Shown here in pieces: positions 41,290-61,280 of a stretch of DNA of 64,000 nt. This stretch comes from Coffea arabica (taxonomy: Eukaryota > Streptophyta > Magnoliopsida > Gentianales > Rubiaceae). How positions within the stretch are numbered: the first letter of the stretch is position 1; each line of letters opens with the position of its first letter. The notes beneath the pieces are model-generated. The model did not search any database, was not told where the DNA came from, and saw only the letters and a program-made list of their open reading frames with translations. The stretch lies in assembly GCF_036785885.1 (NCBI RefSeq), contig NC_092312.1, positions 22,400,001-22,464,000 on the forward strand. The letters are read 5' to 3'. The position numbers were made by a program, and so were the translations under genes.

Positions 41290-41297
41290 TATAAATA
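41290..41297 (+). promoter_or_regulatory. TATA box of the antisense gene in Tat-1
   Basis: TATAAATA inside CCCCTATAAATAGGGGG, 178 bp upstream of the antisense ATG (41475), outside the LTR. Element Tat-2 has the same motif at the equivalent place, which supports a real promoter. Confidence 0.6.
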
Positions 41298-41474
41298 GGG
41301 GGTCCTTTTCACCACCTGCCCCATCATTTTCTTCTTCTGTCTGCGACTTGCAAAATTTGCGAGCGTTGCCGAGATCAATCCTGCCAGCCGAGATCACAGC
41401 CGAAGTCATCCACTTCGTCCAGTTCAGTATACAATAGTAAGTATCCCTTTTCCTTCTTATCTTGTCTTTCACAC

Positions 41475-43790
41475 ATGGCTAAAACCGCGAAGACCCATAA
41501 GGAAACCGTGTCACCGAGCTACCAGGCCGAGGTGAAGCCAGATCCTGAAGAAGAAGCGACGACGTCCAGCTCGGAGGGGTCGACACCGAGTTCAGAGGGG
41601 TCGACCGAGGTGAGGGTCGGAGAGACAGCCTCAGAGTTGGAGTCGTCCGAGATGAGCGAGGGTGGTTCCGAGGTCGAATACAATACCGAGCTCGGGACCG
41701 AGATACCCCATGACGAGGGTGTTCAGGAGCCAGTTGCTCCAGTGGACGCAGCCGACATCGACTTCGGCCAGATGCCGAAGTTTAGGAGTCGCGTAGGAAG
41801 AGATAGGGCCGTGAAGGTAGTGAACAAGTACCCATTCCGGCCGGGGTACGAAATTCTGCTGCCCGAGTTGGATGACACAGCCGCGAAGCCCCCTTACGGC
41901 ATGGTGGCCGTCTACGTTCAACAGCTGGAGGCCGGGCTGAGGATGCCGACGTCGAGGTTTCTCCGGGATTTGCTTCGTCACTTCGGTGTGAGGATCACCC
42001 AACTCACCCCGAACGCGATCCGCATCATCGTGGGGTTCGAGATGCTTTGCCGACATCAGGAGGTGACTCCCTCCGTCGACCTCTTCCGCCGATGCTATAC
42101 TCTCAAGGCGCACGGGACGGATAAAGGATGATTTTATGTTGGCAATCGAAACAATGCCATCCCGAAGTTGGTGATCGGTGCTCCCAACTCGATCAAGAAC
42201 TGGAAGCGCGACTACTTCTTCGTGTCCGGAGTGGACTTCCCGAGGGATTTTTGGTGGAGGCCAATTAAGGCGAAGGCCGACCCCTCGGCAGGGGATGCCG
42301 AAGAGAAATCCTTTCAGAAGTTGATGAAGTCGGGACTTCGGCTGTTCAGCCATGATTACCCCGAAGCCGTGCTCGTGGATGGGGGGATAAGTCGAGCCGT
42401 GATCAATACTACCAAGCCTCCCTTCTTTTCCACTGAACTTGAGATACCTTGTAATTTTTCTTTCGTAGCTTTGCTTTCACTTCGGTTAAGGCATATGATA
42501 ATATTTATTTCTTGTGCAGTGACTAAACTGTCCAACCTCGTCGTCTCTGGCTCGTCCGAAGTGGCCAAGAGGCAGAAGAGGAAGAGCACTGACGAGACCT
42601 CAGCACCTCCGCCAAAGAAGAAGAAGTCACAAGGACCAGCCGCTAAGACTTCGGCGCCTAAAGGCACTCCCACCAAGGTTGGCCAGAGCAGCTCGGCCAC
42701 TGCGGCTACTGGGTCCACCTCGTCTGTACCAGAGGGAGTTCCCCTTGGAGTTGTTACAACAGTCACACCTCCTTCTGGCCGAGGCAAGCAGCTGAAGCCT
42801 CCAGTTAATCCGGTGTCGGGGACCTCGCTATGGAATCGTTTCCATAGCCCCCCAGTGTTTCCCGGAGACGAGAAGACGCACTCCGGCAATCATTGGTGTC
42901 CGAACTGGAAGATTTCGGTCAACGACAGGTGCCAATATCCTCGGGTCGCTCAAGAGCTAGTAATGCACTCCACTCTGCCAAGGGATTTGGAGTTCATGAA
43001 AAAACTAAGCCCGGCCGAACTGGTTCAAAGTCTGATGGTGACCACGGCTTCCAACTCAGCTTTTGCGGCCGAGATGGCTCACAGATACTGTGCTCTGGTC
43101 GAGGAGCAGGACACCGGCAAGCTGCAGACTCAGATCTCCAAGTTGGAGAAACAACTGGCGGTGTCCGAATCCGAGAAGTCGGAGCTTCAGAGGCGACTTC
43201 AAGAGGCTGAAGCTAAGGGTGAGGAGGACGAGACTACGATGAATAGTCTCAGATCAGCCCTCGAGGAGGAGCAGAAGAGGGGGGACGAAGTGAAGAAGTC
43301 CCACGCACAAGCTCTCGAGGGTGCTGGAGCCTCGGCAGTGGATGCGTTTCGAAGGTCCGATGCCTTCATCAAGGACCTCGGCCAACTGCTTACGCCTAAC
43401 TTCATGTTTGGCTTCACATCGGCCATTAATGAGGCTGCGGCTCACCTCTCCTCCGAAGTCTTGGAGTCTTTGAAAAACCATGACAGCTACAATGAGGACT
43501 CCAAGGAGTTATGTGATCGGATGGCCGAAGGCATTCAGGCATGAAGGAATTTGGCCGAAGTCCAGGTCGAGTTCAACAAGTGGCTGTCCGAACTCGACGA
43601 TGTGTTCGAGGAGGTGGAAGTAGAAGAAGTTGGAGGAGCGGACGCTGAGGGAGACGAAGCCGCCGGGGACGAAGTCGGAGTGGACATCGGCAAAGAGCAT
43701 GGAGATGAACACCCCGGCGGAAAAGAGGCCGAAGAGAAGGCTGCCCAGGAGGGAGCCAAGACCGGGGATGGAGCCGAGACGGGGGTCTAG
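41475..43790 (+). pseudogene. Antisense gene of Tat-1, 'putative gypsy type transposon' (Transposase_28) family
   Basis: One reading frame of 772 codons, antisense to gag-pol, broken by two in-frame TGA stops (42129-42131, at a position where the other element has Trp, and 43542-43544). The acidic N-terminus is followed by a conserved block (PPYGMVAVYVQQLEAGLRMP, HFGVRITQLTPNAIRIIVGF, WKRDYFFVSGVDFP) of the Transposase_28 family. Then come a basic, Pro/Ser-rich segment and a long coiled coil (about 43125-43310). A GT-AG intron of 69 bp is likely at 42451-42519, matching one in Tat-2. Antisense ORFs at this place are known in Tat elements (maize Grande 'gene 23' type); function unknown. The stops suggest it is no longer functional in this copy. 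Confidence 0.8.
42451..42519 (+). other. Predicted intron in the Tat-1 antisense gene
   Basis: 69 bp from CTT|GTAATT to TTGTGCAG|TG, T-rich, length a multiple of three and open, so the frame survives with or without splicing. Splicing gives EIPLTKLSNL, which aligns with LTALKRFSQL in Tat-2. Confidence 0.6.
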
Positions 43791-44077
43791 GCTCAGGCTT
43801 TAGGGGGTGGCCGAGGTGGAGAGTGCTTAGTAGCATTCGGACCTCAACCTTGTATTCTTTGTAGCACTCTTTCCTATTAAATGAAAGCCTTTTTCTTCTC
43901 ATCTCAGCGCTTTTTGTTTCTTGCTTTGACTTCATCCCTTGTTTGTCCCCCTTATTTTTTAATAATTGATGCTGGGCATCATATTGTTTGAAAAATAACT
44001 AAATAGCTGAAGTCATAACTTGACAAGATAACTGGATGAAGTCAACTTTGATGAAATAACTGAATGAAGTCACAACT

Positions 44078-47000
44078 TCAAGCATAATACAATCTAAGGT
44101 TCTCGGCGTGCCAAGACCTCGGCACTAATGAGCCATTTCGGTAGCTCAGTTTACAATACCCCTTAGGGTCAGATTCCACAACTCGGTAAGGGCCTTCCCA
44201 TTTCGGGCATAATTTCCCTTGCGGCTCAGCTCGGCTAACTGAATTTTTCCTGAGAACCAAGTTTTCAGGACGGAATCTACGATGTCTGACACGGGCATTG
44301 TAATAGTGTGCCAGTGTGTTCTTGTATGAAGCTATCCGGGCTGAGGCGAGGTCCCTTCGTTCTTCGACGAGGTCGAGGTCCAGCTGCCTCTCTTCGTCGT
44401 TCACCTCGGCGGCATAGGCTGCCAGCCGAGGGCTGGAAGTAAGGATCTCAGCTGGGATGACAGCCTCGGCGCCGTAGGTCAGGGAGAATGGGGTCTCTTG
44501 CGTCGCTGACCTCGGCGTGGTCCGATATGACCACAAGACACTGGAGAGTTCCTCCACCCAAGATGACCCAGCTCGGTGTAGTCGGGTCTTGAGGCCATGC
44601 AGGAGAGTCCGGTTGAAGTTTTCTGCTTGACCATTGGCCTGAGGGTGGCTTACCGAAGTGAAGTGTTGTTTGATGCCGAGGGTCTCGCACCAGGTCTTGA
44701 AGGGGTTCTCGGTAAACTGTCTCCCATTGTCCGAGATGATGACCTGAGGTATGCCGAAGCGGCAGATAATGCATTTCCAAAAGAATTTTTGGATGGCTAG
44801 CCCCGAGATGGTCCGAAGTGGCTCGGCCTCGACCCACTTAGTGAAGTAGTCCACAGCGGTCACTAGGAAGGTATAACCCCCGACGGCTTTAGGGAAAGGA
44901 CCTATGATATCTGTCCCCCATTGCTCGAATGGCCAAGGTGAAGTGATGGGAACCATGAAATTTGAGGGCTGGTGATGCTCGGGTGCGTGGACTTGGCAGG
45001 AAGGACAGCTGAGAACGAGGTCCTGGGAGTCTTGCCGAAGTGATGGCCAGAAATACCCAAGAAGCATAGCTTTCTTGGCTAACATCCGGTGGCCGACGTG
45101 AGCCCCACATACGCCTTCGTGGATCTCGTGGAGGACGTGACGTCCGGCCTCGGGAGTGACACACCTCAGCCATGGGCCGAGGTAAGAGCGTTTGTATAGT
45201 TCTCCATCGCGGAAAGCGTACCGAGCCGCCTTGCGTTGTATTTTTCTCGCCTCGGCTCGGTCTTCAGGGAGTGTTCCCTGACTCAAGAAGAGGATGAACG
45301 GGGTCATCCAGGTATCTTCGGAGTGCACGGGGCAGGCCACCTCTTTTACATATCCGGGTTCACTCAGAACTTCCACTAATACCGTTTTGTTGAGGTCAGA
45401 GAATGAAGTGGAGGCCAGCCGGAATAAGGCGTCGGCTCGCTTATTCTGGGACCGGGGGATTCTTTGGATTTCGAATGACTTGAAGTATGCGGTGAGTTGG
45501 TGAACTTTGGAGAGGTACCTTTGCATGGTCTCATCCTTAGTCTCGTATTCACCGAGAACTTGGCGTACCACGAGCTGGGAGTCACTGCGGACGTGGATTT
45601 GCTGGGCGCCGAGCTTGCGGGCTAGCTGGAGTCCAGCGATTAGAGCCTCGTACTCGCCTTCATTGTTGGTGGCCGGGAAGTCAAAACGGATGGCGTACGA
45701 GCACGCCTCCCCCTGAGGTCCTTCCAGGAGCAGTCCGGCTCCGCAGCCGTCTCCATTAGAGGATCCATCGACATACAATGTCCACAAGGATGAGGTGGAC
45801 ACCCCGGCTAAGGCCGAGGTGGACTCCGGACCTTCCGTGAAGGTGAGCTCAGCAAGGAAGTCAGCCAAAGCTTGAGCTTTTATGGCGGTGCGTGGCTCGT
45901 AGGACAAGTCATATTCTCCCAATTCGACAGCCCACTTGGTGAGGCGACCAGAAGCTTCGGGCCGCACCAATATTTGCCGAATGGGCTGGTCAGTCCTGAC
46001 CGAGATAGGATGGGCTAAGAAGTAGGGATTCAACCGCCGAGCGGTGTGGACTAGTCCCAGCACCAGTTTCTCCACCTGAGTGTATCGAGTCTCCGGCCCG
46101 CGAAGAGCTCGGCTGACGTAGTAGACCGGCACTTGAGTGCCCTCATCTCGGATGAGCACAGCGCTGACAGCCTCGTCGGCTGCAGAGAGGTAGAGGTAGA
46201 GCTTTTCCTCGGACCGAGGTGAAGCAAGAGTTGGGAGGTGATGCAAGTACTGCTTCAGCTGGTCGAAAGCACCCTGACACTCCTCAGTCCAGGCGAACTG
46301 GTCAGCCTTTTTTAGCACCTTAAAGAAGGGCAGAGCTTTCTTGGCGGATTGGGACAAGAAGCGATTCAGCGCGGCCAGGCGTCCATTTAACCTTTGGACT
46401 TCTCGGACGTTTCGAGGTGGGGACATATCTTGAATGGCCTTGACCTTGTCGGGATTGGCCTCAATTCCCCGGCGGGAAACCAAATACCCCAAGAATTTTC
46501 CGGAGGTGACGCCGAAGACGCACTTCTTTGGATTCAATTTCATCCTCGAATCCCGCAGGACGCCGAAGACTTCCCTCAAATCAGATAGGAAGGCCGAAGT
46601 GGCCTGGCTCTTGACAAGGATGTCGTCCACGTAGGCCTCCACATTGCGGCCGATCTGGTTTTTGAAGAGGCGATTGATCAATCTCTGGTAGGTCGCCCCG
46701 GCGTTCTTTAGCCCGAATGGCATGGTAGTATAACAATAAGTACCTTGGTCGGTGTAGAACGCCGTTTTCTCTTGGTCCTCTTCACTCATTCCTATTTGAT
46801 GATACCCTTTGAAGGCATCTAGGAAGCAGAGGACTTCATACCCCATCGCCGAGTCGACGAGGGCGTCTATCCTTGGCAGGGGATAGCAATCTTTGGGGCA
46901 GGCCTTGTTGAGGTCGGTGAAGTCTACACAAATTCTCCATCCACCGGTGTCCTTTTTGACCATAACTGGGTTGGACAGCCAGGTGGGATATTGGACCTCG

Positions 47001-48715
47001 TGGATCATCTTGGCCGGCAAGAGCTTGTCGACCTCGTCCGATATGGCCTTGCTGCGTTCGGGGCCGAAGTGCCTTCGTTTCTGCCGCACAGGTCGGGCCT
47101 GTGGGTTAACGTTAAGTTGGTGAGTCATAAGCTCGGGTGGCACTCCGACCACTTCATCTGCGGACCACGCGAAGATGTCTCGGTGGTCCTTGATCAGGGA
47201 GATCATTTCCTCTTTCAGGGGTGAGGGGAGTCCGGTCCCTACTTGGACCAGTTGGTCAGGTTTGGCTTCATCCAAGACCACTTGCTCCACCTCATCCCCG
47301 GGCTCAAGCCTGCTGGGCTCTCCTGCCTTCTGAGGGTCGATGCAGTCTATGGAGAGGACAGCCGGCCTCTTTTCTTCTGACCTCGGCGGGGGCTGAGGTC
47401 CGACTGCAGCTTGGATGGTGGCGAGGTAGCATTCTCGAGCGGCGCCCACGTCACTGCTCACCTCGGCCACACCCTCTGGTGTTGGAAACTTGAAACTCAG
47501 GTGGTAGGTGGAATATACGGCTCTCAAGGCATTGAGCGTGGGCCGGCCTATCAGCATGTTGTAAGGAGAGTCCGCTTTGACCACCGCAAAGCTGACAGGC
47601 ACAGTTCGGCAGCGGGGATGACGCCCGATAGTCACCGTTAAATTCACCATGCCCTCCGGGTGGACGACGTGTCCCCCGAAGCCGACAAGGGGAGTTCTGA
47701 CCGGAGTGAGTTGCTCCCGGGTCAACTTCAAACTCTCGAAAGTTCGGTAGTACATGACGTCTACCGAGCTTCCGGGGTCAACGTAGACCTTTTTGACTAT
47801 GTAGTTATTTGTGAGGACCTCAATCACTAGGGTCTCGTGATTGCTGGAGGCGGCGGGGACAGGGTCACGGGGACCATAAGTTATCACCTCGGACAGCCTC
47901 GAGCTCGGCTCGGCCACATCCATGCCGGCTTGGCGGTAGGTTCGCTTTCGGGAGTTCTGGCTGTCTCCTCCCGTGGGGCCACCTGATATGGTGTTGATCA
48001 CCCCGGCAATGTTTGGGCCGTAGCCTGGTGATCCGTCACGTGGAGGCCTCTGATCCCCCTTGTGGTCCTCAGGACCTCGGCAATTAAGCTTGGTGTCCCG
48101 CCTGTCTTCTCGACGAGGACCTCGGCTCTCCCGGTGGGAGGCACTTCGGCCGAAGCTTCCGTCTTTGCGGATGAACTGCTTCAGGTATCCTTGTCGGATT
48201 AGGTTTTCGATCTCTCGCTTCAGATCGTTGCAATCTTCAGTCTCGTGCCCAACGTCTCGGTGGTAGGCGCAGTAGAGGTTGGAGTTCCTCTTATCTCTCC
48301 TCCCATGGATCTCAGGAGGTGTTCGGCCGAGGTGGTTCTGCCTCATTACAGCCAAGACGTGAGACCGACTAGAATTGAGCGGGGTCAACTCGGCGTCCGA
48401 GGTGGACGATCTCCCTTTCACTATTCGATCAAAGACACTCCGGCGGTCTCGGAGTTGGTTTGAAGTGCCACTTGGGCCGGGTTCACCTCGGCTGGTGTCT
48501 CTCCTCCTCCGGGGATCTTGCCCCGTACGAGAGGCTTGGGCCTCTCGCTTCATGCGGTTTACATCCTCACTTCGGATTCCCTGGTCCACTCTGTCCCAGA
48601 GTTCCCGAAGTGTACGGGGGTACTCCCGATGGATTTCAGTGTTGAAGATTCCCGCCACCAATCCGTTGGTAAAGGCCGCGATAGTTACCTGCTCGTTCTG
48701 GTCAGGTATCTGCAC
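44078..48715 (-). CDS. Tat-1 gag C-terminus plus complete pol polyprotein
   Basis: Uninterrupted 1545 codons. Order: the end of gag with a zinc knuckle (YCAYHRDVGHETEDC, about residue 150); aspartic protease (VYVDPGSSVDVMYY, about 310); reverse transcriptase (CFLDAFKGYHQI, YVDDILVKS about 697); RNase H (YLYLSAADEAVSAVL, about 842); a second, Tat-specific RNase H (WTLYVDGSSNGDG, about 985; RIPRSQNKRADAL); integrase with an HHCC region (HEGVCGAHVGHRMLAKKAM, CPSCQVH) and D,D,E residues (WGTDIIGPF about 1266, ISDNGRQF, QAENFNRT). It ends after a WEGPYRVVES-type C-terminus without a chromodomain. All visible catalytic residues are present. The true start lies in the upstream gag frame, from which it is separated by one frameshift near 48733. 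Confidence 0.93.
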   Translation of the reverse strand: MQIPDQNEQVTIAAFTNGLVAGIFNTEIHREYPRTLRELWDRVDQGIRSEDVNRMKREAQASRTGQDPRRRRDTSRGEPGPSGTSNQLRDRRSVFDRIVKGRSSTSDAELTPLNSSRSHVLAVMRQNHLGRTPPEIHGRRDKRNSNLYCAYHRDVGHETEDCNDLKREIENLIRQGYLKQFIRKDGSFGRSASHRESRGPRREDRRDTKLNCRGPEDHKGDQRPPRDGSPGYGPNIAGVINTISGGPTGGDSQNSRKRTYRQAGMDVAEPSSRLSEVITYGPRDPVPAASSNHETLVIEVLTNNYIVKKVYVDPGSSVDVMYYRTFESLKLTREQLTPVRTPLVGFGGHVVHPEGMVNLTVTIGRHPRCRTVPVSFAVVKADSPYNMLIGRPTLNALRAVYSTYHLSFKFPTPEGVAEVSSDVGAARECYLATIQAAVGPQPPPRSEEKRPAVLSIDCIDPQKAGEPSRLEPGDEVEQVVLDEAKPDQLVQVGTGLPSPLKEEMISLIKDHRDIFAWSADEVVGVPPELMTHQLNVNPQARPVRQKRRHFGPERSKAISDEVDKLLPAKMIHEVQYPTWLSNPVMVKKDTGGWRICVDFTDLNKACPKDCYPLPRIDALVDSAMGYEVLCFLDAFKGYHQIGMSEEDQEKTAFYTDQGTYCYTTMPFGLKNAGATYQRLINRLFKNQIGRNVEAYVDDILVKSQATSAFLSDLREVFGVLRDSRMKLNPKKCVFGVTSGKFLGYLVSRRGIEANPDKVKAIQDMSPPRNVREVQRLNGRLAALNRFLSQSAKKALPFFKVLKKADQFAWTEECQGAFDQLKQYLHHLPTLASPRSEEKLYLYLSAADEAVSAVLIRDEGTQVPVYYVSRALRGPETRYTQVEKLVLGLVHTARRLNPYFLAHPISVRTDQPIRQILVRPEASGRLTKWAVELGEYDLSYEPRTAIKAQALADFLAELTFTEGPESTSALAGVSTSSLWTLYVDGSSNGDGCGAGLLLEGPQGEACSYAIRFDFPATNNEGEYEALIAGLQLARKLGAQQIHVRSDSQLVVRQVLGEYETKDETMQRYLSKVHQLTAYFKSFEIQRIPRSQNKRADALFRLASTSFSDLNKTVLVEVLSEPGYVKEVACPVHSEDTWMTPFILFLSQGTLPEDRAEARKIQRKAARYAFRDGELYKRSYLGPWLRCVTPEAGRHVLHEIHEGVCGAHVGHRMLAKKAMLLGYFWPSLRQDSQDLVLSCPSCQVHAPEHHQPSNFMVPITSPWPFEQWGTDIIGPFPKAVGGYTFLVTAVDYFTKWVEAEPLRTISGLAIQKFFWKCIICRFGIPQVIISDNGRQFTENPFKTWCETLGIKQHFTSVSHPQANGQAENFNRTLLHGLKTRLHRAGSSWVEELSSVLWSYRTTPRSATQETPFSLTYGAEAVIPAEILTSSPRLAAYAAEVNDEERQLDLDLVEERRDLASARIASYKNTLAHYYNARVRHRRFRPENLVLRKNSVSRAEPQGKLCPKWEGPYRVVESDPKGYCKLSYRNGSLVPRSWHAENLRLYYA

Positions 48716-49386
48716 ATTCTCCTCGTTGAACCTTGAGTATACGAGCGAAGGGACTCGCCCTGACCCTGTTGCAGGTTCAAGAGGTAAGCTGAAGTCTTGG
48801 TTATCGGTCGGGACGACACGAAGCGGTGGATGAACCGGTCTATCAGTTCATCCAGGGAGGAAATGCTCCCCGGCTCTAAACTCCAGAACCACTTGCGGGC
48901 AGTCCCATGTAGGAAAATGGGGAAAGCCCGGCATATCACGGCGTCGGGGACGCAGTAGAGTCGGAAGGCAGAGATGAAGGCGCGGAGGTGATCCTCGGGG
49001 TCACCTCGGCCGTCATAGGTGGGCAAGTTTGGAAGCTTGAAGTTCGGGGGTACCATCTCCCCATTGATGTCATCAGTAAAGGGCGGAGCCCTCATGTAGT
49101 CAGAAGCTAGGCCCCCGGGGCGCCGAGGTGGGTTCTCAACTCGTTTCCCCAGCAGTCCCCGAGAAAACGCCCGGGAGATGGAGGCAAGTTTAGACGTCGC
49201 CTTGGAGGAGGCGCGCCTGGAGGTACTCCGAGAGAGTCGCCCCTCATCTGAGTCTTCACCTGAAGGTACCTCAGGGGACTTCGTCAGCCTCCTCTTGGAG
49301 GACTCGGCCTTTTCTTTCCCCTGTCTTTTGAGGTACCTTCCTAGCTCCTCAAAAATGGTAGGGTTGTGTGATACGAACTCGGCCAT
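48716..49386 (-). CDS. Tat-1 gag, N-terminal part (frameshifted)
   Basis: Capsid-type gag with a Retrotrans_gag domain: LPTYDGRGDPEDHLRAFISA, FPIFLHGTARKWFWSLEPGS, LDELIDRFIHRFVSSRP, GESLRSYTQ. After SLRSYTQ the frame shifts by one base (near 48733); the gag sequence then continues in the pol frame (QIPDQNEQVTIAAFTNGL). The first good Met is at 49386. The same frame is open upstream to near 49510 without an ATG, so the natural start is uncertain. The frameshift is probably the main reason this otherwise intact copy would not be autonomous. Confidence 0.82.
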
Positions 49387-49544
49387 CTTGGCGATGGCCT
49401 CCTCGTTGTTAGGCTGGGTCCTCGGGGACCCTTGCTCTTCAGAAATGCGATCTTGCTGGGCTCCCGAGGTCTGCCAGCCCCAGTTGAGGGAACTCGACCA
49501 CTTCTGGAGCGCGTGAATCTCATTTTAGTAATAGTAGTCTCGTT

Positions 49545-49562
49545 CCCACAGACGGCACCAAT
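49545..49562 (-). other. Primer-binding site of Tat-1
   Basis: Minus strand reads TTGGTGCCGTCTGTGGGA just inside the 5' LTR, the form usual in Tat elements. The equivalent Tat-2 site is one or two bases different. Confidence 0.78.
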
Positions 49563-50130
49563 TGAAGAGGTGATTTTCGGTTGGTACCTAGACCGACCTG
49601 GATCAGTCCTCTCTGAGATGAAGTGAGGTGAACTCCTGTGTCCGAAGTGAACCTCGGTGTCCGAAGTGAGTGGCGGGGCTTCTTCCCTGGGATCACTCCG
49701 ACGATCAAGTTAGTATGAGAACGAGAATAATAGGAGTATAAGCAAATGAACAGTGTGCTTACTTGTTGGGAGTGTGTCAGGGGTATTTATAGAGAGAGAG
49801 TAGAGGACAGAGCGGAGGGCTTATGCTGGTGGGACCCACCCTCTGGTCATTACGGCTCTGTCCCGTGTCAGGAGGTCTGACTCTGACACTGTAGCTGCCT
49901 GGGCATGATGACGGGGAGGATTGTGCAGGTGCCATTAAGTGCCTCCAGTGCTTTTCAGATAAAGCACTGGTCCTGGGCGATGTCAGATGGTTTGACATCA
50001 TCAGCGTGCAGCTGAGGTGGGGGTGCCGAGGTCGGCTACACAGTAGGCTAGGGAAATGGCCGAGGCCGAGCTCAGGGATGATGCCCGGGACACGGATGAG
50101 CTCTGATGAGGGACGAGGTGAGCATCCTCA
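49563..50130 (-). repeat. 5' LTR of Tat-1
   Basis: 568 bp, TGAGGATGC...CTCTTCA on the minus strand. TATAAATA (plus-strand 49784-49791) is the probable promoter. Lacks the 33-bp hairpin of the 3' LTR. Confidence 0.92.
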
Positions 50131-50135
50131 GACGG

Positions 50136-51401: not shown

Positions 51402-51409
51402 GTTCTAAG

Positions 51410-51802
51410 TAGAACTGTAAACGAATCGAACCGCTCACGAGCGACTCGAGTCAAGCTCGATTCGAGTTCAATCAATATCAAGCTCGAGCTCGAGTCAAAT
51501 TCGAGTTCGAACAATATTAAGCTCGTTACTTGCAAGCCGGCTCACGAGCTCAAGTGTGTGTATGTGTGTGTATATATATATTAATAAAATTACATATATA
51601 TCCTTAATATTTTATTATTTATTAAGAAAAAATATTATTTTATTTATTTTTTAAAAAAATAATTATTTTTAATTTTTTCGAGTTCGAGCTTTAAATTGTC
51701 AACTCGTCGAGCTCGAACTCAAGTTCGAGTTTAATAAAACTAAGTCAAGACTTAACTCGATTAGACCAAAACTCGACTCAACTCGGCTCGTTTGTAGCCC
51801 TA
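51410..51802. mobile_element. hAT MITE, 393 bp
   Basis: Terminal inverted repeats TAGAACTGTAAACGAATCGA and, from the other end, TAGGGCTACAAACGAGCCGA. Perfect 8-bp target duplication GTTCTAAG (51402-51409 and 51803-51810). The subterminal parts are dense in GAGCTCGA/TTCGAGTT repeats and the core is AT-rich. No coding capacity. Confidence 0.9.
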
Positions 51803-51810
51803 GTTCTAAG

Positions 51811-52194
51811 CAACTTAACTTTAGTTTGTCATTTGATGCTAGTCCTTTGATAAGTGAACCAGACAGTTTATACTGTTGAATTGCTATCTAGGTTGGTTAA
51901 TCTGAGCATCTGTTTAACTTTTATGTCTTTAAGTCCTAAGATGCAATGGTGGGTAGCGTGTTAGCCTCCTCATTGCTGGGCCGTGACATCTAAAACTAGC
52001 ACGCTTCTACCGATAGATTAGAGCAGGCCAATGCCCAATAATACAGATTTTTTGTTACCTGAACTGGTTAGTGGATACTCGTGTGGTCATATTGGGGCCC
52101 TGGATTGTTCATGTCTAAAAATAACAAAGATAAAAGATTGAGTCAAATGTCTTCGATATTCTTTTTTTTGTTTTATTTTTATAGCAAAATCAAT
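51811..52194. other. Intergenic DNA upstream of Tat-2
   Basis: No gene or element ends recognised. Confidence 0.4.
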
Positions 52195-52199
52195 CCTTG

Positions 52200-52692
52200 T
52201 GTAATGGGGCAAATCCACGCATGACACATGTCAGTTCGGCATGCCGCACACACGAGGTCGGCCATATAAATCCCACAGCTCGTACACCTCAATTCGGCGT
52301 AAAAGGGGCCAGCTCGGCCGTAACAGACGCCTCTCCATGGAATGGGCCTCGTGGGCCACCGCCTCTGAACTTGTAGGGGTCGTCATACAAAATCCTAGGA
52401 AGACTCCGAACCCTAAGGGGACTCCTACTCCTATATGGAAACTACTACCCGGAAGCCTATAAATATGGCGCCATAAGGCGACATAAGGTACACGATCTAC
52501 AGTACTCTATACTATTGCCCTACTCATAGGCTCTGCTGACTTGATCATCGGAGCTATTCTGGGGACCCTAGTCCCGCCGTTGTTCTCTCTCTACAGGATA
52601 GTCAGTTCGGTTCTCCCCTCTCGGTTCGGCTACGCTCATCCAGCTCGGCTCGTGGCAGCTCAGCTCGAACTACGTTCTTGGCCGTCGTATCA
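52200..52692 (+). repeat. 5' LTR of Tat-2
   Basis: 493 bp, TGTAATGGGG...GTCGTATCA, with TATAAATA near 52459. Confidence 0.92.
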
Positions 52693-52693
52693 A

Positions 52694-52710
52694 TTGACGC
52701 CATCTGTGGG
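52694..52710 (+). other. Primer-binding site of Tat-2
   Basis: TTGACGCCATCTGTGGG directly after the 5' LTR, the Tat-type site with two changes from the Tat-1 form. Confidence 0.72.
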
Positions 52711-52736
52711 AACACATAATTCTTCTTTTGCGAATC

Positions 52737-54170
52737 ATGCCAAGGACGAGGTCTCAGAGGAACGCTGATGGATCCAAGGGGAACGAGAGGAGCAGCCCCC
52801 AAAACCTCATTCAGGGTCCGACCCCTGGAGAAGAGGAGGCGGGGCACTCACGGATCCCGCCTGAACAATTAGTCTAGACGGTGGCCGAAAACCTACCAAC
52901 CTTCGAGGCGATCATGAATTACCTCAAAGGGCAGACAGAAGGTCATCCCGGCCAGGGGCCAAAGAGCCAAGGAGATGGGCTGTTCGAATCTTGAACTGAG
53001 AGCCCTAACCCCCGGGCCAAGCGGGTGGGCCAGGAGCTCACGCGTGAACAGGTCGACGTTGTGGAGCCTTCTCACAAACACTCCCGAACTGAGCACCCAG
53101 AGCCCTTCCGGAGGTATTCCCAGGAGGAGCTCTCCCCGCGGAAAGAGCAGCTCCAGGTATAGGACGAGTTGGACCTGCTTTTAGACCCTGAGGCGAACAA
53201 GTACATCGCTTCCCCCTTCGTGCCCGATATCGAGAACTTCCCGCTGCCCGCGAAGTTCAAAATACCGAGCATGAAATCTTACGATGCGACCACGGATCCG
53301 GAGGATCACCTGTTCGCTTTCATGAGGCAAATGCGCCTGCAAATGGCTGCGGATGCGGTCAGATGCAAGACCTTTCCAATGTTTCTGGACGGAAAGGCGC
53401 GTCAATGGTTCCAGGGCCTTCCCCCCAGGTCTATTCGATCCTTTGCCCAGCTCACACGACTGTTCTCAGCACAGTTCGTTTCGTCGCGGGTCTTCTCCAA
53501 AAGCACTGCCCACTTGATGACCATCCATCAGAAGCCTGAGGAGTCCTTACGCGAGTTTATGGTGCGCTTCAATAATGAGTCCCTCCAGGTCCGCGACCGG
53601 GATGACAAGGTAGTCATGGCCGCCTTTATTAACAGGCTGCGTAAACAGAAACTCTACACCGAACTCGTGGAAAGACCTCTCAAGTCAGTACGAGAGATAC
53701 AGGACCGAGCTCACGAGAAGGCCAACGTTGAGGAGGCCAATCGCCTAAAGAGCATGCAGGAGAGACTAAGGAACGATAAGCGCAGGAGAAGCACTGATCA
53801 GATAGACGTGCGGCCTGGCCAGAGGCGGAAGAATGCCTACGACCGCCTGCCCAGGACTCGGCCCCTGGGAGGAGACAAGTCATGGACTACCCTCACCGCA
53901 CCTCGATCTCGGGTCCTGGCAGTGATGGAACAGGAAGGGCTCTCCCGACCTCCCCGGCTCTTGGCCGGAGACATGAGCAGACGGGACCAGGGTCTGTACT
54001 GTGCGTATCACCGAGATGTGGAACACGATACGGAGGACTGTCATCACCTCAAGAAAGATATCGAAAAGTTGATTAGACGAGGCCACCTCGGGCAATTCAT
54101 ACGTGATGAACGAACTGACCAGCGACGGGAAAGGCCCCAACCGGAGCACCTGAGCTACTCTCGAGACTGA
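52737..54170 (+). pseudogene. Tat-2 gag, broken
   Basis: Starts MPRTRSQRNADGSKG, then meets an in-frame TAG at 52873 and further breaks up to about 53160. From 53169 a long frame encodes the capsid region (SYDATTDPEDHLFAFMRQMR, FPMFLDGKARQWFQGLPP, FAQLTRLFSAQFVSSRV, EESLREFMVRFN) and the zinc knuckle (YCAYHRDVEHDTEDC, about 53999-54043). A TGA at 54168-54170 separates it from the protease in the same frame. Confidence 0.88.
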
Positions 54171-57100
54171 CCTCAGGGGCCCCGTGGCCGAACTCCCGAG
54201 CAGGAAGCTCAGAATCTTGCCTGGGTGATTAACACTATTGCAAGAGGACCAGTTGGAGGGGACAGCCATACAGCTCGGCGACATAACCACCCTCCTCCCA
54301 GCGGAGAGAGTTCGAGCAAACGATTGAAGATGTACGAGGAAATCATTTACGGACCTGAGAATGCGGTCCCTTTGGCCTCTAATAATCACGAAGCCATCGT
54401 GATAAAGGTCATTACCTGCAACTACAAGGTAAAAAAGGTATACATAGACAATGGTAGTGCCATAGACGTACTGTATTATAAGACCTTTAAGGAGCTACAG
54501 CTAGAGGATAGACAGCTCGTCCCAATTCGAACTCCATTGATCGGTTTTGCACATTCTCCGGTGAGGCCGGAGGGAATGATAACTCTCATGGTTACGGTGG
54601 GGGTGTCTCCGAAGTGCCGAACTGTTCCGGTAAATTTCGCGGTGATAAAAGAGCCTTCATCGTACAATATGATTATAGGGCGGCCCACCCTGAACGCCCT
54701 TCGGGCTGTCTGCTCCACCTTGCACCTCAGTATGAAATTTCCTACTCCTGCTGGGGTAGCTAAGGTGCTCGGAGATCCAGAGGTGGCCAGGACCTGTTAC
54801 ATTGCAACTCTTAAGGGCAAAGAAAAGTTAGTTGCTCAGACAGCTTGTTTGGAACCCTGGGAGCCTGTGGAGAAAGGAGAGAGACTGGAGACGGACGAGG
54901 GACTGGCCGAGCTGTCGATCTGCCCGGAGTGACCTGAGCGCACTGTCAAAGTCGGCACCTGTCTAAGTGAGCTGACCCGAAATGAATTGGAAACCCTTTT
55001 AGAAGAATATGCGGAGATCTTCGCTTGGAGCGCTGAGGACATTCCCGGGATCTCCGCCGAGCTAGTTGTTCACAAGTTGCACGTGGACCCTCATGCCCGA
55101 CCTGTGAAGCAGAAAAAAAGGAATTTTACGCCGGAGCGAAACGAGGTCGTCAAGAGTGAGGTAGGTAATCTGTTGGAAGCCAAGATCGTGAAAGAAATCT
55201 ATTATCCGATCTGGCTGGCTAACCCAGTCCTGGTCAAAAAGGAAGTAAGGACTTGGAGGATGTGTGTGGACTTCACCGATTTAAATAAGACTTACCCAAA
55301 TGACTGCTACCCACTACCGCGGATTGACTAGCTCGTGGACTCAACATTTAGGTATGAGATTTTCTGTTTCTTGGACGCCTTCAAAGGATACCATCAGATA
55401 GCCCTGGACAAGGAGAATCAGGAGAAGATCTCGTTTATCATTGAGAACGGCACTTACTGTTACGCCACCATACCGTTCGGGGCTGAAAAATGCGAGCGCG
55501 ACCTACCAGAGGCTGGTCAATAAGTTGTTTAAGGACCAGATCAGTCGAAATATAGAGGTCTACGTGGATGACATGTTGGTGAAAAGTCGGACTCAGGAGC
55601 AGTTCATTGCTGACCTCAGGAAAATTTTTGATGTCCTTCGGAGCTCACAGATGCGGCTGAACCCCAAGAAATGCACATTTAGAGTCAGGTCGGAAAAATT
55701 CCTGAGCTATATGATTTTCAAAGAAGGGGTAAGAGCTAACCCAGACAAAATCAATGCTATCATGGACATGGCTCCACCTCGAAATATTAAGGAGGTGCAA
55801 CGCCTGACTGGGAGGATGGCATCTCTGAACCGGTTCTTGTCCAAGTCAGCAGTTCGGGGCTCTTCTTTCTTCAGAGTCTTGAGAAGAGGTCCTCAATTTG
55901 AGTGGACCTCGAAGTGCCAGAAGGCATTTGACGAGCTGAAAGCTCACCTTGCTCGGTTGCTGGCCCTAACCTCTCCCGAGTAGGGGGAAACCCTGTTCAT
56001 CTATCTAGCTGTGGGGGAGGAAGCTGTTAGCGCTGTGTTGGTGCGAGAGGAAGACAAGGTCCAGAAACCCGTATACTATGTTAGTCGCGCCCTACAGGAG
56101 GCCGAAGCAAGGTACTCGGCAATAGAACGCTATGTCTTGATATTAGTACATGCCGCTCGGAAGCTCTGGTTGTACTTTCAACCTCACCCCATAGTAGTGG
56201 TGACGGACCAGCCCCTGAAGCAGATCCTCTCCAAGTCCGATATCTTGGGTCGGATGGTGAAATGGGCTGTGAAACTGTTAGAGTACGACCTCGGTTACCA
56301 GCCGAGGACGGCCATCAAAGTCTAAACCCTGGCAGACTTCATGGCAGAAGGCGTCTCCTTTGGATCGTCCGAAATGGAGGTCGACCAGGCCAAAGAAGTA
56401 GGAAAGGCTGGAAAGGTCAAAGAAATTGCTAAGGACGCACACACTAGACTAGCAGCCAAGGCCCTACAGGCCCAAGAAACTACCAAGGCCACACAGGCCC
56501 AAGAGGCAGTTGAGGTCCTGCGGACTGGAGATACTGCCGAGGTCGCCCAAACCAATCAGGTAGCAGAGGTCGGACAGGCCGAAGACGCAGCTAAGGCCGA
56601 ACAGGCCAGAGAAGCTGCCGAGGTCGGACAGGCCGGAGACGCAGCTGAGGCCACACGGACCAGAGAAGCTGACGAGGTCGGACAGGCCAAAGAAGCAGCG
56701 GAGACCGAGCAGACCCAAGAAACTGCCAAGGTCGGATAGGCCAGAGAGGCAGTTAAGGTCAGACGGGCCGGAGAGGCTGCCGAGGTCACGCAATCTGGAA
56801 GAGCAGTCCAGGCCGAACTGGCCAAAGAGGCTGCTCAGACCAGGAAGGCTACAGAGGCTGCAGGACGAACAGAACCTATCTGGACGCTATACGTAAACGG
56901 CGCGTCGAGCAGGGAAGGATGTGGGGCAGGACTCCTCCTAATCAACCCCACTGAGGAAGAGCTGGCCTACGCCTTGAGGTTCGATTTTAGAGTCTCTAAT
57001 AATGAAATCGAATACGAGACTCTAATTGCAGGGATGGAGATGGCTCGAAAATTAGGGGCTGAGTCAATAAAAATCTACAGCGATTCGCAGTTGATAGTGA

Positions 57101-58584
57101 ACCAGGTACTGGGGAGCTACGAGGTCAAAGAGGGGCCACTAAGGAAGTACATCGCCAAGATGCATGAGCTGATGGACCAGTTCAAGCAGTTCACGCTCGA
57201 GCAGATCCCACGGAGCCAAAACAAGAGAGCTGATGCCCTGTCCAAACTGGCATCTACCTTGTTTAGCACTTTAAATCAAAAAATATTGGTGGAGGTCGTC
57301 AAAAGTCGGGCGTATGAACAGTTAAACACCACAGTCATTTAGGTGATAAGCTCTTGGATGGATCCCATTGTCCAATACCTGACTCATGGGGAGCTCCCCC
57401 CGAGCAGGGCGGAGGCCCGCAAAGTCCTCCTCAAATCACAAAAGTACGTACTCACGCATGGAGTACTATATAGGAAATCTTACTTGCAGCCATGGTTAAA
57501 GTGTGTGACGCTTGAGGAAAGGAGCTATGTCTTGCGCGAACTATATGAGGGGATCTGTGGCAATCACGTCAGGCCAAGGGTACTGGCCAAGAAGGGAATG
57601 TTATCTGGATACTATTGGCCCACCATCTTCAGGGACTCCGCCGAGCCGGTAGCCAGATGCAAGTATTGTCAGTTGCACGCTCCAATTCACCATGTCCCAA
57701 CTCAGGAGATGGTTCCTCTCCATAGCTCGTGACCGTTCTTTCAATGGGGAATTGACCCACTAGGCCCATTTCCCCGAGCTCCGGGAGGTTATGAGCATCT
57801 GGTAGTGGCCATTGACTACTTTACTGAATGGATAGAGGTCGAGCCACTCAGCACGATCAATAATAGGTCGATCCAGAAGTTTCTTCAGAAGGGCATAGTC
57901 TGCCGATTTGGCATACCCCGGATTCTGATCTCAGATAATGGATGGCAATTTGCAGATAGATCCCTCCAGGAGTGGTGCACCGAGCTCGGCATCCAGCAGC
58001 GTTTCACTTCCGTAGGGCACCCACAAGCTAATGGACAGGTCGAGAATGCTAACAGGACCATCTTGCACGGCCTGAAGACACAAATAGAGTCTGCCAGAAC
58101 TGGCTGGCTGGAGGAGTTGCCTACCATATTGTGGGCCTACCGGACAATACCTCGGACGGCCACCCGGGAAACCCCGTTCGTCCTGACATATAGGGTCGAA
58201 GCAGTGATTCCAGCAGAAATTGGAGTACTCTCAAGTAGGGTGCAACACTTCGTGGCTAGGGATAACGAGGAGGAGATGCGACTCAACCTAGATCTGCTCG
58301 AGCATCGAAGGGAAGAAGCAAACATAAGAATGGCTAAGTATAAAGGTCAGGTCGCACGATACTACAACGCCAGAGTAAGGCACCTCTCTTTCAAATCAGG
58401 GGACTTGATTTTGCGCAGAAACTCTGTGAGCTGAGCTAGGGGCACGAGCAAGTTAGACCCGAATTGGAAAGGTCCCTACGTGGTGAAAGAAGCTGATCGG
58501 GCGGGGTACTGTAAGCTAGCTCATCTCAATAGGGATAAGGTCCCGCGCACCTGGCACAATTCGAATTTAAGGCTTTTTCGCTAG
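54171..58584 (+). pseudogene. Tat-2 pol, broken by stops and a frameshift
   Basis: Protease (VYIDNGSAIDVLYY, GRPTLNALRAV), reverse transcriptase (CFLDAFKGYHQIAL, YVDDMLVKS), RNase H (FIYLAVGEEAVSAVL), a long repetitive linker (56341-56865), second RNase H (WTLYVNGASSREG; the usual VDGSS Asp is Asn here), integrase (ICGNHVRPRVLAKKGM, CKYCQLH; D,D,E in GIDPLGPF, ISDNGWQF, QVENANRT). Stops at 54930, 55329, 55981, 56323, 56737, 57340, 57730 and 58432, and a frameshift near 55490. The first catalytic position of the protease reads D-N-G instead of D-P-G or D-S-G. Non-functional. Confidence 0.9.
56341..56865 (+). repeat. Degenerate coding minisatellite in the pol linker of Tat-2
   Basis: About 175 codons of imperfect repeats with unit about 30 bp or its multiples (variants of gaggtcggacaggcc and gaagcagctgaggcc). 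They encode Ala/Glu/Gln/Thr-rich, probably helical text such as EVGQAEDAAKAEQAREAA. They sit between RNase H and the second RNase H domain, where Tat-1 has only about 30 unrelated residues. The frame is kept through the array apart from one Gln-type stop (56737-56739), so the array grew while the frame was under selection, or by in-frame slippage. Confidence 0.85.
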
Positions 58585-59426
58585 ACCTTAGCCCAAGCGG
58601 AGGAAGGAAGTTCGGAAGATTTACGTGGCCATAGCTGCAGAGGTCAGCTCGATGGGTAGTTAGCTCGGTAAGCTGTTAGATCGGTACTTGGGGTCACAAG
58701 AATGTATTCAAGATTCTATGAAAAAATAAAAAATTCTTTGCCAAGTGTTGAATGAACAGGCCATCTATTTCCTTTCCAAAAGAAATATACATAAGGGGGG
58801 CCATACAAAAAGAGTTGGCTAGCTCGGACCCTACTCTACGTCCTACCTACACCTATGCTGAGCATTGCCTAATTTTCTCCTTGCAGCTCCTGCTCGGCGG
58901 AGGTTGCAGGCAGGGAAGGATCCGCCACCAGCGCGGCCAGGTCGCACCCATGCGTGTAGCCGTCCACGAGCCTGTCAATCTGGTGAACTGCCTGGGGATT
59001 ATAGTTGGGCCACCTGCTCAGGTCGAACCCAAGCAAGTTCAGAGATTGCACGTCATGCATGGCTTGGGCGTACCCCACCTGCAGGATGGGCCCGTTAAAA
59101 ATGGCCAGGTCCTTCATAAAGTCCTCAGACTTCTTGAAGTCCCTGACGCCCAGCTAGCGGCCCTCCTCACGAGCTGCTTCAATCTGACCAAGCAGCTCGG
59201 CGGATTTCTTCTGCTCCACCTCCAGCTGTGTGGTCAGCTCGACCGACTTCTTTTTTTCCAGCTCACAGGAGGCCTGAGACTCGGCAAGCTGCTTTTTCAC
59301 GGACTCTAGCTCTGCCTCCGCTGCCTCCAACTGACTGGACAGCATGTTCTTGGCCGCATCAGCCTGGAAGAGATTCTCTCCCATGTTCTCGTACCTTTGT
59401 GCCAACTCGGCACCAGTCACATTGAG

Positions 59427-59501
59427 CTACAAGACGAACACAGAATAAGAGACTGACAAGTCAAAGGAATTTCACTGAGGCACCACCAGTTGAGGAGTTA
59501 C
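59427..59501 (-). other. Second predicted intron of the Tat-2 antisense gene
   Basis: 75 bp, GCTCAG|GTAACT to TTGTAG|CTC. Contains an in-frame stop; removal joins SVAQ to LNVTGAELAQ and reaches the coiled coil. No counterpart seen in Tat-1. Confidence 0.6.
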
Positions 59502-60034
59502 CTGAGCTACACTCAGGTAATAGTGCTCCAGTAGCTCAGAATTGGACGCGAGTTGGATGAAGTGGTGATCACGTGAGAGCACCGTACCCCTGATAAGCTC
59601 CCGGGCAGTCTCTGGGAACTGAGTTCGGTCGTTCACCGATAACCCCCATTTGGGGCAGAAATGCAGGGGATGCGGGTGAGTGCGCAGCCCGGAAGGAGGC
59701 TTCAGAGGTATCACATTCCTCCTCCGCCACATAGCTGGTGACGACTCGGACGAGGCCTGCTGCTCGGCAGTGTTCACCCCGTAATGGGTTGCGGAGGCTG
59801 CTGAGGGCCCTTTCAGGGGCGGAGGAGAAGTCTCCTCAGTTCGCGCCTTCTCGGCCACGGTCTTCTTCCTCTTTTTCTTAGGCTCCTCCCCAGGCGATGA
59901 CTGAGCTGCAATCTGAGGAGTAGACACTGGTGGAGGGGGAGGAGCTGCGCTGCTAAGAGCGGTGGAAGGTGCAGGAGCAGGCGTGCTCGTGCTGCCAGTT
60001 CCCCCAATGTTCAACAATTGAGAAAACCTCTTCA

Positions 60035-60130
60035 CTACAAAAGAGAAAGGATGGGTCAGTCGGACGATGTGACCAAACTTAAAAACAAAAAAAAAAAAAA
60101 AAAAGAGAAGGGATGAGGTCAAGAAGTTAC
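60035..60130 (-). other. First predicted intron of the Tat-2 antisense gene
   Basis: 96 bp, GCTT|GTAACT to TTTTGTAG|TG, poly-T rich. Same position and phase as the 69-bp intron of Tat-1; also a multiple of three without stops. Confidence 0.62.
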
Positions 60131-61272
60131 AAGCTGTCAGCTCCTCGAGGGTGAGGGGTCGGAGATCGGGGGCAGGGTTGTTCACCTCTACTCGAATCAA
60201 CCCCGCCGACCAGAGTTGGGCATTATTAAATACCTTCACCTTTAGCCGAGCTTCTGAGCTGACCAGACGGTCCAACTCGGCCGCTGGCAGAGGTGAGGGA
60301 ATGGGATCAGATACCTGGGTCTCCTCCCTCCAGGTCAGGGGAGGAAACCCTGTATTCTTCACAAAAAAAAACTGGGCTTTCCAGCCCTTGATTGAGGAGG
60401 GCATCTATGTGAACAGCTCGCGGGTGGGGAGCTCCCTTCCGCTCCTGCGAGCGAAGTAGAACCAACCGTGAACCGGGCCACTCATTTTCATTTGAAAAAA
60501 TGACCTAAACAGGTCCAAAGAGTAAGGGATTTCAAGAACGCGGCACAAAATAAAAAAGCCAATGATGGACCGAATAGCATTGGGGACGAACTGGATGATC
60601 CGAATCCCCCAAAAGGTTAGGATCTGGTAAAGAAACTGAAGGATAGGAAGGCGGAAACCAACCACGAGCTGATCTTTGTAGATGGCCACGAACTCAGAAG
60701 GAGGTCGACAAGCGTACTCCCCTGGCCAGGCAGCCCTAGTCTCGAACTGAGGGGGAATGTCATACCTCCCTACTTGTTCGTCTGCATCCCCTAGTCCAAG
60801 AGGGGGGATAATCTCGACCTTCCCGAAGTCGATATCCGGCCCCCTGGGGCGTCCCGCCCTGGTACGAGCTGGAACTGCCTCCAGAGGAATCTCTGGGGCA
60901 GCAGCTTCAGCTTCAGGTTGGGCAGGTTGACCGGGCTGGTCCATGTCTATGGCTGGAGAGGGTGCTGGGGAAGGAAGATATTCAGACCCAGACGAACTGG
61001 AAGAAGAAGAGCTAGAAGAAGAAGAGAGTATCTCTATAGGAGCAGGTCGGACTACTCTACGTCTAGGTGCTGAGCTAGTAAGGTCTGAATGTGTAGTAGA
61101 AAAAGACATAAAAAGAAAAGAAGACTTACTAGCGGATAAGAGGGAAGAGCTGGTAGGTGCTTAAAAGGAGACGCTATTCTCGGATGGACTCACTAAGCGT
61201 GGAGCGAGTTGATGAAGATTTGGAAGGAGGAAAAGTGAGATAGGAAGCTTGAAAATGACGTTTGGTGAGGTC

Positions 61273-61280
61273 TATTTATA
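61273..61280 (-). promoter_or_regulatory. TATA box of the antisense gene in Tat-2
   Basis: Minus strand TATAAATA in CCTATAAATAGACC, 164 bp upstream of the ATG at 61109, outside the LTR. Mirrors the arrangement in Tat-1. Confidence 0.6.

Follow-up and report, generated by a model that had tools for sequence, protein, structure and literature searches.

A candidate spliced antisense accessory gene with its own TATA box in two Tat/Retand-type LTR retrotransposons

Introduction

HBZ, an antisense gene of HTLV-1, has a spliced form. Its product is a nuclear antisense protein (PMC11963269), and the HTLV antisense promoter lies inside the 3′ LTR (PMC7264820). Among plant elements there is already an example of an antisense gene with a promoter of its own: gene23 of maize Grande is described as having such a promoter and encoding a nuclear protein (Gomez-Orte 2013, as cited in PMC7264820). 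In the Retand lineage, antisense ORFs with a TRP28 domain were surveyed by Vicient (2025), who counted 104 antisense ORFs, 57 of them with TRP28 (PMC11963269). The open literature searched yielded no mention of conserved introns in such an antisense gene.

Here we describe such a gene in two elements of a window of Coffea arabica DNA (the whole stretch that was analysed, 64,000 nucleotides). With a probability of about 0.78, it appears to be an antisense accessory gene of Tat/Retand-type elements that has its own TATA box, is spliced at an old phase-1 intron and encodes a nuclear regulator protein.

Results

The two elements of the window

The window contains two LTR retrotransposons, the exact LTR ends of which were set by eye:

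40382..50124, minus strand: Tat-1 LTR retrotransposon, gag-pol on the minus strand
40382 to about 40944 and 49563 to about 50124: 3′ LTR and 5′ LTR of Tat-1, 98.75% identical over 560 aligned bases
52200..62044, plus strand: Tat-2 LTR retrotransposon, gag-pol on the plus strand, frames broken
About 52200 to about 52692 and about 61552 to about 62044: LTRs of Tat-2, 95.1% identical over 492 bases

Both are Ty3/gypsy elements. Between its LTRs, Tat-1 shows the Ty3/gypsy order gag (PF03732), RT (PF00078), RNase H and rve, and in Tat-2 gag, RT and rve were recognised in separate pieces. One Tat trait is a second RNase H-like domain that follows RNase H and precedes integrase; the corresponding test concerns Tat-1 only (the scanned Tat-2 pieces do not span that region), where PF13456 was recognised at 983-1097, between RT_RNaseH (836-935) and Integrase_H2C2 (1191-1244). 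The label Tat/Retand-type is a putative one for both elements, given on the basis of architecture. A PBS-like stretch adjoins the 5′ LTR of Tat-1, for which no target-site duplication was recognised by eye. Tat-2 has the target-site duplication CCTTG and a PPT adjoining its 3′ LTR (both by eye).

Antisense gene models

In both elements, an antisense ORF lies between pol and the 3′ LTR and matches PF04195 (Transposase_28) with 66.5 bits in Tat-1 (residues 146-211 of exon 1) and 52.8 bits in Tat-2, the gathering cut-off being 26.2 bits. The models are as follows:

41290..41297, plus strand: Tat-1 antisense TATA box, TATAAATA, 185 bp before the ATG (41475) and about 350 bp outside the 3′ LTR
41475..42450, plus strand: Tat-1 antisense exon 1, carrying PF04195, with a premature TGA at 42129-42131
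42451..42519, plus strand: Tat-1 antisense intron, 69 nt, GT..AG, phase 1 after CTT, T-rich, stop-free here
42520..43790, plus strand: Tat-1 antisense exon 2, with basic NLS-like clusters and sub-threshold coiled-coil matches
61273..61280, minus strand: Tat-2 antisense TATA box, TATAAATA, 171 bp before the ATG (61109) and about 270 bp outside the 3′ LTR
60131..61109, minus strand: Tat-2 antisense exon 1, carrying PF04195, with a premature TAG at 60405-60407
60035..60130, minus strand: Tat-2 antisense intron 1, 96 nt, GT..AG, phase 1 after CTT, stop-free
59502..60034, minus strand: Tat-2 antisense exon 2, with a KKKRKK basic cluster
59427..59501, minus strand: Tat-2 antisense intron 2, 75 nt, GT..AG, containing a stop
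58869..59426, minus strand: Tat-2 antisense exon 3, with an in-frame TAG at 59154-59156 and the frame ending at 58869-58871 (by eye)

The end of Tat-1 exon 2 was placed from copies with a 748-aa spliced frame; in the window copy the frame already stops at 43542-43544. With a premature stop in exon 1 of each window copy, neither is an intact gene. The two exon-1 proteins are homologous, with 34.8% identity over 233 aa (E 1.7e-35), and their ends coincide in position and phase. An expanded T run makes intron 1 of Tat-2 longer than in its relatives (71-86 nt); intron 2 was found in six aligned Tat-2-type relatives, in which its sequence and length vary.

These models agree with a preliminary description of the locus, which had reported a homologous Transposase_28 gene in both elements, a first intron of shared position and phase with the coordinates and stop-free lengths divisible by three listed here, and a second, stop-containing intron in Tat-2. 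It had also placed TATAAATA outside the LTRs, 160-180 bp before the ATG; motif and location stand, but the distance is slightly off for Tat-1. The premature stops of the window copies are not mentioned in it. Across copies, 49 of 51 rows carry TATAAAT at a distance of 160-199 bp upstream of the ATG, and the remaining two carry an upstream TATAAATA, with the window Tat-1 counted twice and L051-L065 left out, as their stretches begin too near the ATG.

Intron position and composition across copies

The sample comprised 66 copies from one plant genome, namely 64 other loci and the two window copies. In 64 of them (63 tallied and L057 by eye) a GT donor occupies the shared protein position, the exceptions being L034, which has TT, and L007, which has no recognisable donor. 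The tally of 64 introns, which leaves out L007 and L057 (GT..AG by eye), gave GT in 63 and AG in all 64; splice sites were located by motif search where exon homology stops, so that these counts are partly by construction, and many copies are of recent common ancestry, so that they are not independent. Although identity between exon-1 proteins of the Tat-1 and Tat-2 types is only 29-41%, the donor is present at that position in 64/66 copies, which argues that the intron shared by Tat-1 and Tat-2 is more than chance.

The T content of the introns is 37-52%, as compared to 18-21% in the 300 nt on either flank. Over 105 pairs, the mean difference was 0.190 in the intron vs. 0.191 at third positions of the last 100 exon-1 codons, and intron differences distributed over hypothetical codon positions (531/332/336) showed no third-position excess. 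The excess at hypothetical position 1 was counted against the spliced-gene explanation. Intron-less retrocopies were searched with two exact junction patterns, which gave no match vs. 81 and 18 matches to comparable unspliced patterns; the pattern flanks differ, and diverged copies are missed, so that this negative result carries little weight. One scan of viral contigs yielded no relatives outside this genome.

Selection on the exons and protein features

Exon 1 and exon 2 are under purifying selection, with omega mostly 0.1-0.3 in the chosen copies. For exon 1, omega was 0.15-0.46 in 100 of 105 pairs from 15 copies, with a single pair above 0.31 (five pairs were left out, four with dS ≤0.03 and one with undefined dS); for exon 2, the median was 0.18 (range 0.13-0.29; 54 of 55 pairs, 11 copies), and Tat-2-type exon 1 gave 0.11-0.22 (3/3 pairs). 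These copies were picked because their frames are open, and an upstream ATG served as the start of five of the 15 exon-1 sequences. On the same strand, the remaining two frames gave 0.66-1.30 and 1.42-3.36 (six pairs). In the opposite-strand frame with aligned third positions omega was 0.18-0.31 (six pairs), as expected because third positions coincide. Coding on the sense strand was considered and rejected: the opposite frame of exon 1 has 8-14 stops in all seven copies checked, and the longest sense stop-to-stop stretch spans 125-225 of about 635 codons. A minus-strand ORF of 240 aa was observed there in the window copy. Splice sites and frame are conserved in other copies, so that one of the refutation checks named beforehand was passed.

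The exon-2 set takes in copies whose intron is 68 nt long or bears a stop (L001, L005, L017, L018, L025, L035), and therefore exons 1 and 2 can there form one protein only via splicing. Since the donor is conserved, the introns are T-rich without third-position excess and the exons are under purifying selection, splicing is very likely the working state of the antisense gene.

Of 29 chosen copies, 26 have NLS-like clusters within the first 85 residues past the intron, and none has them in exon 1. Exon 2 starts in frame directly after AG (LTKLSD or LKRFSQ type), and no conserved methionine was found in its first 85 residues (29 copies). An AlphaFold model of the TRP28 domain from a two-sequence alignment (mean pLDDT 44.1) was too poor for use.

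Alternative explanations

The best surviving alternative, though an unlikely one, is that the antisense transcript is itself functional and forms dsRNA with the 3′ end of the genomic RNA, leading to silencing or self-limitation, the protein being secondary. Such a role has been proposed before (PMC7264820), the whole antisense unit is located opposite the internal 3′ region of the element, and the account of HeT-A cited here describes splicing conserved in antisense transcripts only (PMC3235214). However, purifying selection acts at the protein level on both exons and needs translation, so that a role of the RNA alone leaves it unexplained. RNA and protein roles can coexist.

Slightly less probable still is the existence of two separate antisense ORFs (TRP28 and coiled-coil) that splicing does not connect, with GT..AG left as a remnant. 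This would suit the published survey, which counts the 104 antisense ORFs (57 with TRP28) one by one (PMC11963269), but donor, acceptor and phase are kept across families that differ in intron length and sequence, the intron is T-rich relative to its flanks, and exon 2 continues in frame right after AG with no conserved methionine of its own in the 85 residues examined in 29 copies.

The preliminary description had proposed an exitron, in which spliced and unspliced forms would both be functional proteins differing by a short hydrophobic insert. Both window introns are multiples of three and stop-free, as are 20 of the 64 tallied introns and 31 of 81 Tat-1-type pattern matches (vs. about 1/8 expected from length and composition, the copies not being independent). 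Against this, 30 of the tallied introns are not multiples of three and 14 are but contain a stop; the Tat-1-type matches (42 introns of 68 nt, 37 of 69 and 2 of 70) include 44 of the former kind and 6 of the latter; and no intron divisible by three was found among the 18 Tat-2-type matches or the seven fetched Tat-2-type relatives (71-83 nt). Tat-1-type introns are 68 nt in L001-L005 and L025-L031, and 69 nt with a TGA in L016-L019, L023 and L032-L038; the L001-L005 group, with 68 nt and stops, amplified recently (exon-1 divergence 0.3-1.5% among L001, L002 and L005). Moreover, shuffled introns are stop-free in 28-39% of cases with Tat-1-type and 46-60% with Tat-2-type composition, and the 531/332/336 distribution reveals no coding constraint. 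The hydrophobic insert is what T-rich (U-rich) intron sequence encodes. Given intron lengths, stops and the lack of codon periodicity, the exitron is contradicted in most of the subfamilies covered, is very improbable and was rejected: length divisible by three and freedom from stops, on which two in-frame protein forms depend, are not conserved.

Discussion

According to the preferred explanation, a spliced antisense accessory gene, transcription would start from a TATA promoter of its own inside the element and outside the LTR, and the transcript would be spliced at an old, position-conserved phase-1 intron, as sequence evolution strongly suggests. The predicted product is about 690 aa long in the Tat-2 type, as calculated from coordinates, and 748 aa long in the Tat-1 type, and would carry an N-terminal TRP28 domain from exon 1, followed past the intron by NLS-like clusters and a coiled-coil-like tail; most likely it acts as a nuclear regulator of the element. 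From established biology, retrotransposition would not be expected to remove the intron, whose splice signals are unusable in the genomic RNA because they are on the opposite strand. An unspliced transcript whose intron is not a multiple of three or has a stop would either be degraded or encode a TRP28 fragment lacking NLS and coiled coil.

A more tentative reading, on the whole rather doubtful in all its parts taken together, is that Retand-type elements placed a splicing step between the TRP28 part and the NLS/coiled-coil part. The antisense strand would then be the sole place where an LTR element keeps an intron through retrotransposition, and use of the intron would predate the split of the TRP28 families seen here. 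Spliced transcripts would yield the nuclear regulator and retained ones a TRP28-only form outside the nucleus, and protection of the antisense mRNA from silencing could be a further role of the intron. In this reading, the presence of introns and of an own promoter suggests that the gene entered as genomic DNA and not as a transduced mRNA.

If the spliced gene is confirmed, ORF-based surveys of plant Retand elements split one spliced gene into separate "antisense ORFs", and the gene model changes to a TRP28 domain joined to NLS and coiled coil. Its origin by DNA capture or mRNA transduction would become testable from intron positions, and antisense splicing would provide a clean strand-diagnostic RNA-seq marker of real antisense gene expression.

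Comparison with known systems

Like the published Retand ORFs, the gene described here is antisense, lies between pol and the 3′ LTR and matches PF04195, and the published set likewise includes further antisense ORFs with Smc, Mis12 and similar matches. That survey used ORF Finder, and the word "intron" is absent from its main text; unlike the ORFs described there, the downstream ORF seems here to belong to the same gene as its exon 2 (PMC11963269). With Grande gene23, as presented in PMC7264820, our gene shares the position of an antisense accessory gene downstream of pol, and a promoter of its own and a nuclear protein are predicted for it as well; promoter activity here is suggested by the TATA box only. 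HTLV-1 HBZ is also a retroelement antisense gene and encodes a nuclear regulator, which is putative in our case; the HBZ promoter is in the LTR, while the TATA boxes found here are separated from the inner edge of the 3′ LTR by about 350 and 270 bp. Drosophila HeT-A, in the cited account, is a non-LTR element with 3′ UTR transcripts of putative regulatory role and no protein under selection (PMC3235214). Finally, Ogre, as portrayed in PMC6317226, is also a plant LTR element with a spliced intron, which is predicted in our case and, unlike that of Ogre, is antisense.

Two elements carrying a split antisense gene

The window contains two adjacent Ty3/gypsy LTR retrotransposons, Tat-1 and Tat-2:

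40382-~40944 and 49563-~50124, minus strand: LTRs of Tat-1, 98.75% identical over 560 aligned bases
about 52200 and 62044, plus strand: LTRs of Tat-2, 95.1% identical over 492 bases

A repeat search (minimum 60 nt, seed 16) gave no repeat family common to the two LTR pairs. The pol of Tat-1 is a single long ORF, with a second RNase H-like domain ahead of the integrase; the gag-pol of Tat-2 is fragmented, and its target site duplication, CCTTG, was recognised by eye. In both elements the interval from pol to the 3' LTR holds a gene on the strand opposite to gag-pol. Its N-terminal part matches PF04195 (Transposase_28, TRP28) with 66.5 bits in Tat-1 and 52.8 bits in Tat-2 (cut-off 26.2), in agreement with the family assignment of the preliminary description. 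The coordinates proposed there for the antisense genes were also correct: TATAAATA is found 185 bp (Tat-1) and 171 bp (Tat-2) upstream of the ATG, a homologous phase-1 intron follows CTT (69 and 96 nt, respectively), and the Tat-2 gene has a further, 75-nt intron. Premature stops interrupt both window copies (TGA at 42129-42131 in Tat-1; TAG at 60405-60407 and 59154-59156 in Tat-2), and for this reason other copies were needed.

The PF04195 profile search of the window's own 1.2 Gb genome gave 979 first-look candidates, 150 of which were scored and listed. When the Tat-1 and Tat-2 genes were used as DNA queries, 416 and 234 candidates were obtained, respectively, and 40 of each were scored. 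The 65 loci fetched (8 + 30 + 12 + 15; L001-L065) include the window itself as L009, and with both window copies the total is 66. They include Tat-1-type, Tat-2-type and L050-type genes. Seven near-identical Tat-1-type genes, all with a 68-nt intron (L025-L031, contig C8, about 16.207-16.263 Mb), mark a tandem array of elements; six of the seven share an orientation and are spaced at about 9.5 kb.

In 49 of 51 rows, TATAAAT lies 160-199 bp upstream of the ATG; the rows are L001-L050 except L007, together with both window copies (window Tat-1 counted twice). In the remaining two rows (L045 and L048), where the ATG was missed by the pattern, TATAAATA was found upstream.

Other features were observed in the window. 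Direct repeats at 11323-11797 and 13319-13812 (91-96% identical, about 2 kb apart) enclose an ORF at 12424-12888 that by eye resembles a copia gag/protease fragment; the unit is probably a short, non-autonomous LTR-flanked element. Large inverted repeats at about 5294-9486 and 16850-18690, with arms of up to 441 nt that are 99% complementary, surround this copia-like piece, and a foldback or MITE-like inverted repeat (32575-32794/33468-33687) has 220-nt arms, 91% complementary and 673 nt apart. Two plus-strand ORFs, 19582-21051 (489 aa) and 25703-27184 (493 aa), show by eye several QALGGH-type C2H2 zinc fingers and are probably host transcription factor genes.

Conserved intron position and selection on both exons

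Protein homology places the end of exon 1 at one common point in the Tat-1 and Tat-2 types, whose exon 1 products share 34.8% identity over 233 aa; for the L050 type, identity is about 51% with Tat-1 and 35% with Tat-2. The donor is GTAA, GTAC, GTAT or GTCA, preceded by CTT (CCT, CTC or GTT in some copies), and the acceptor is CAG (TAG in the window Tat-2), followed by TGA or TGG (TAA in L057). The splice sites are conserved in other copies, with GT at 63 of 64 donors (TT in L034) and AG at all 64 acceptors, counts that are partly by construction because the sites were located with motif patterns. The tally leaves out L009, L057 (GT..AG by eye, acceptor missed by the pattern) and L007, a PF04195 copy in which unrelated sequence replaces the expected donor region after exon 1, and which alone among the 66 copies has no recognisable donor. 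Intron position, phase and composition are independent of these patterns. The T content of the intron is 37-52%, as compared to 18-21% in the 300-nt flanks on each side (35-50% in introns of later loci). All 7 aligned Tat-2-type copies (window and L039-L044) have the second intron, which is bounded by GT and AG and varies in sequence.

Both exons are under selection, and the frame is conserved on the antisense strand. For exon 1, 100 of the 105 pairs among 15 copies chosen for open frames gave an omega (dN/dS) of 0.15-0.46, a single pair exceeding 0.31; the pairs not reported are four with dS ≤0.03 and one with undefined dS. Exon 2 had a median omega of 0.18 (range 0.13-0.29; 54 of 55 pairs, 11 copies) and Tat-2-type exon 1 gave 0.11-0.22 (3 pairs), as compared to 0.66-1.30 and 1.42-3.36 in the other two same-strand frames (6 control pairs). 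L001, L005, L017, L018, L025 and L035, whose introns are 68 nt long or contain a stop, keep at least 363 open codons of exon 2 in the frame given by splicing. We infer that the antisense gene is transcribed and spliced in vivo.

The proposed use of the intron as an alternative coding segment

The preliminary description had proposed an exitron, that is, a stop-free first intron of a length divisible by three (3n), whose spliced and unspliced forms would both be proteins. This proposal did not hold across copies: only 20 of the 64 introns are 3n and open, 30 are not 3n and 14 are 3n with a stop. Genome-wide, Tat-1-type pattern matches (52-77 nt allowed) have introns of 68 nt (42/81), 69 nt (37/81) or 70 nt (2/81), 31 being 3n and open and 6 being 3n with a stop by hand count. 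Tat-2-type matches (58-88 nt allowed, which excludes the window's own 96-nt intron, whose extra length is a T run) have 71 nt (10/18), 83 nt (7/18) or 86 nt (1/18), and none is 3n. The 3n-open state is commoner among Tat-1-type copies than expected by independent chance, the copies being related and not independent, and it is lost in several subfamilies whose spliced frames stay open. Shuffling gave stop-free introns in 28-39% of cases for the Tat-1-type composition and in 46-60% for the Tat-2-type composition.

The substitutions, too, speak for an intron and do not support a conserved exitron. Among the 69-nt introns of Tat-1-type copies (105 pairs) the mean difference was 0.190, as compared to 0.191 at the third positions in the final 100 codons of exon 1, where first and second positions differ less (0.106 and 0.066). 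Sorted by hypothetical codon position, intron differences were 531/332/336, with an excess at position 1 and none at the third position. The 3n, stop-free introns of both window copies are best read as a coincidence, and the hydrophobic insert, previously taken as a protein feature, as what a U-rich sequence encodes.

Proposed product and comparison with known elements

From the 66 copies, 29 that represent the subfamilies were selected and scanned for NLS-type motifs. Such a motif lies among the initial 85 exon-2 residues of 26 copies (the exceptions are L042, L060 and L062), and none of the 29 has one in the last 325 residues of exon 1. After the intron, the Tat-1 type has KRQK, KRSK, KRPK or KRLK, then PPPKKK, the Tat-2 type KKKRKK and the L050 type KKRK, basic clusters that we take to be of the classical NLS type. 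According to the most likely working model, the spliced antisense mRNA would yield a nuclear TRP28-coiled-coil regulator, nuclear entry and regulation both being presumed. In subfamilies with non-3n or stop-containing introns, the product of a retained transcript would end in or soon after the intron, without the NLS. Since the splice signals lie opposite to the genomic RNA strand, the intron would stay in place when genomic RNA is copied into a new element; searches with two exact exon-junction patterns turned up no intron-less copies, a weak negative result.

In the open PMC literature searched, we found no report of introns in the Retand-type antisense TRP28 gene, and the word "intron" is absent from the main text of PMC11963269. 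PMC7264820 calls for antisense and spliced transcripts to be examined, and cites a report that gene23 of maize Grande has its own promoter. Ogre and EVADE are named, in a review, as notable exceptions among the generally intron-less plant LTR elements (PMC12786077), and antisense-only splicing is known for Drosophila HeT-A (PMC3235214). Exon 2 of Tat-1 gives only sub-threshold coiled-coil matches, e.g. to CENP-F and Mis12, which resemble the Smc and Mis12 matches of the Vicient antisense ORFs (PMC11963269); those ORFs probably correspond in part to exon 2 of the present gene.
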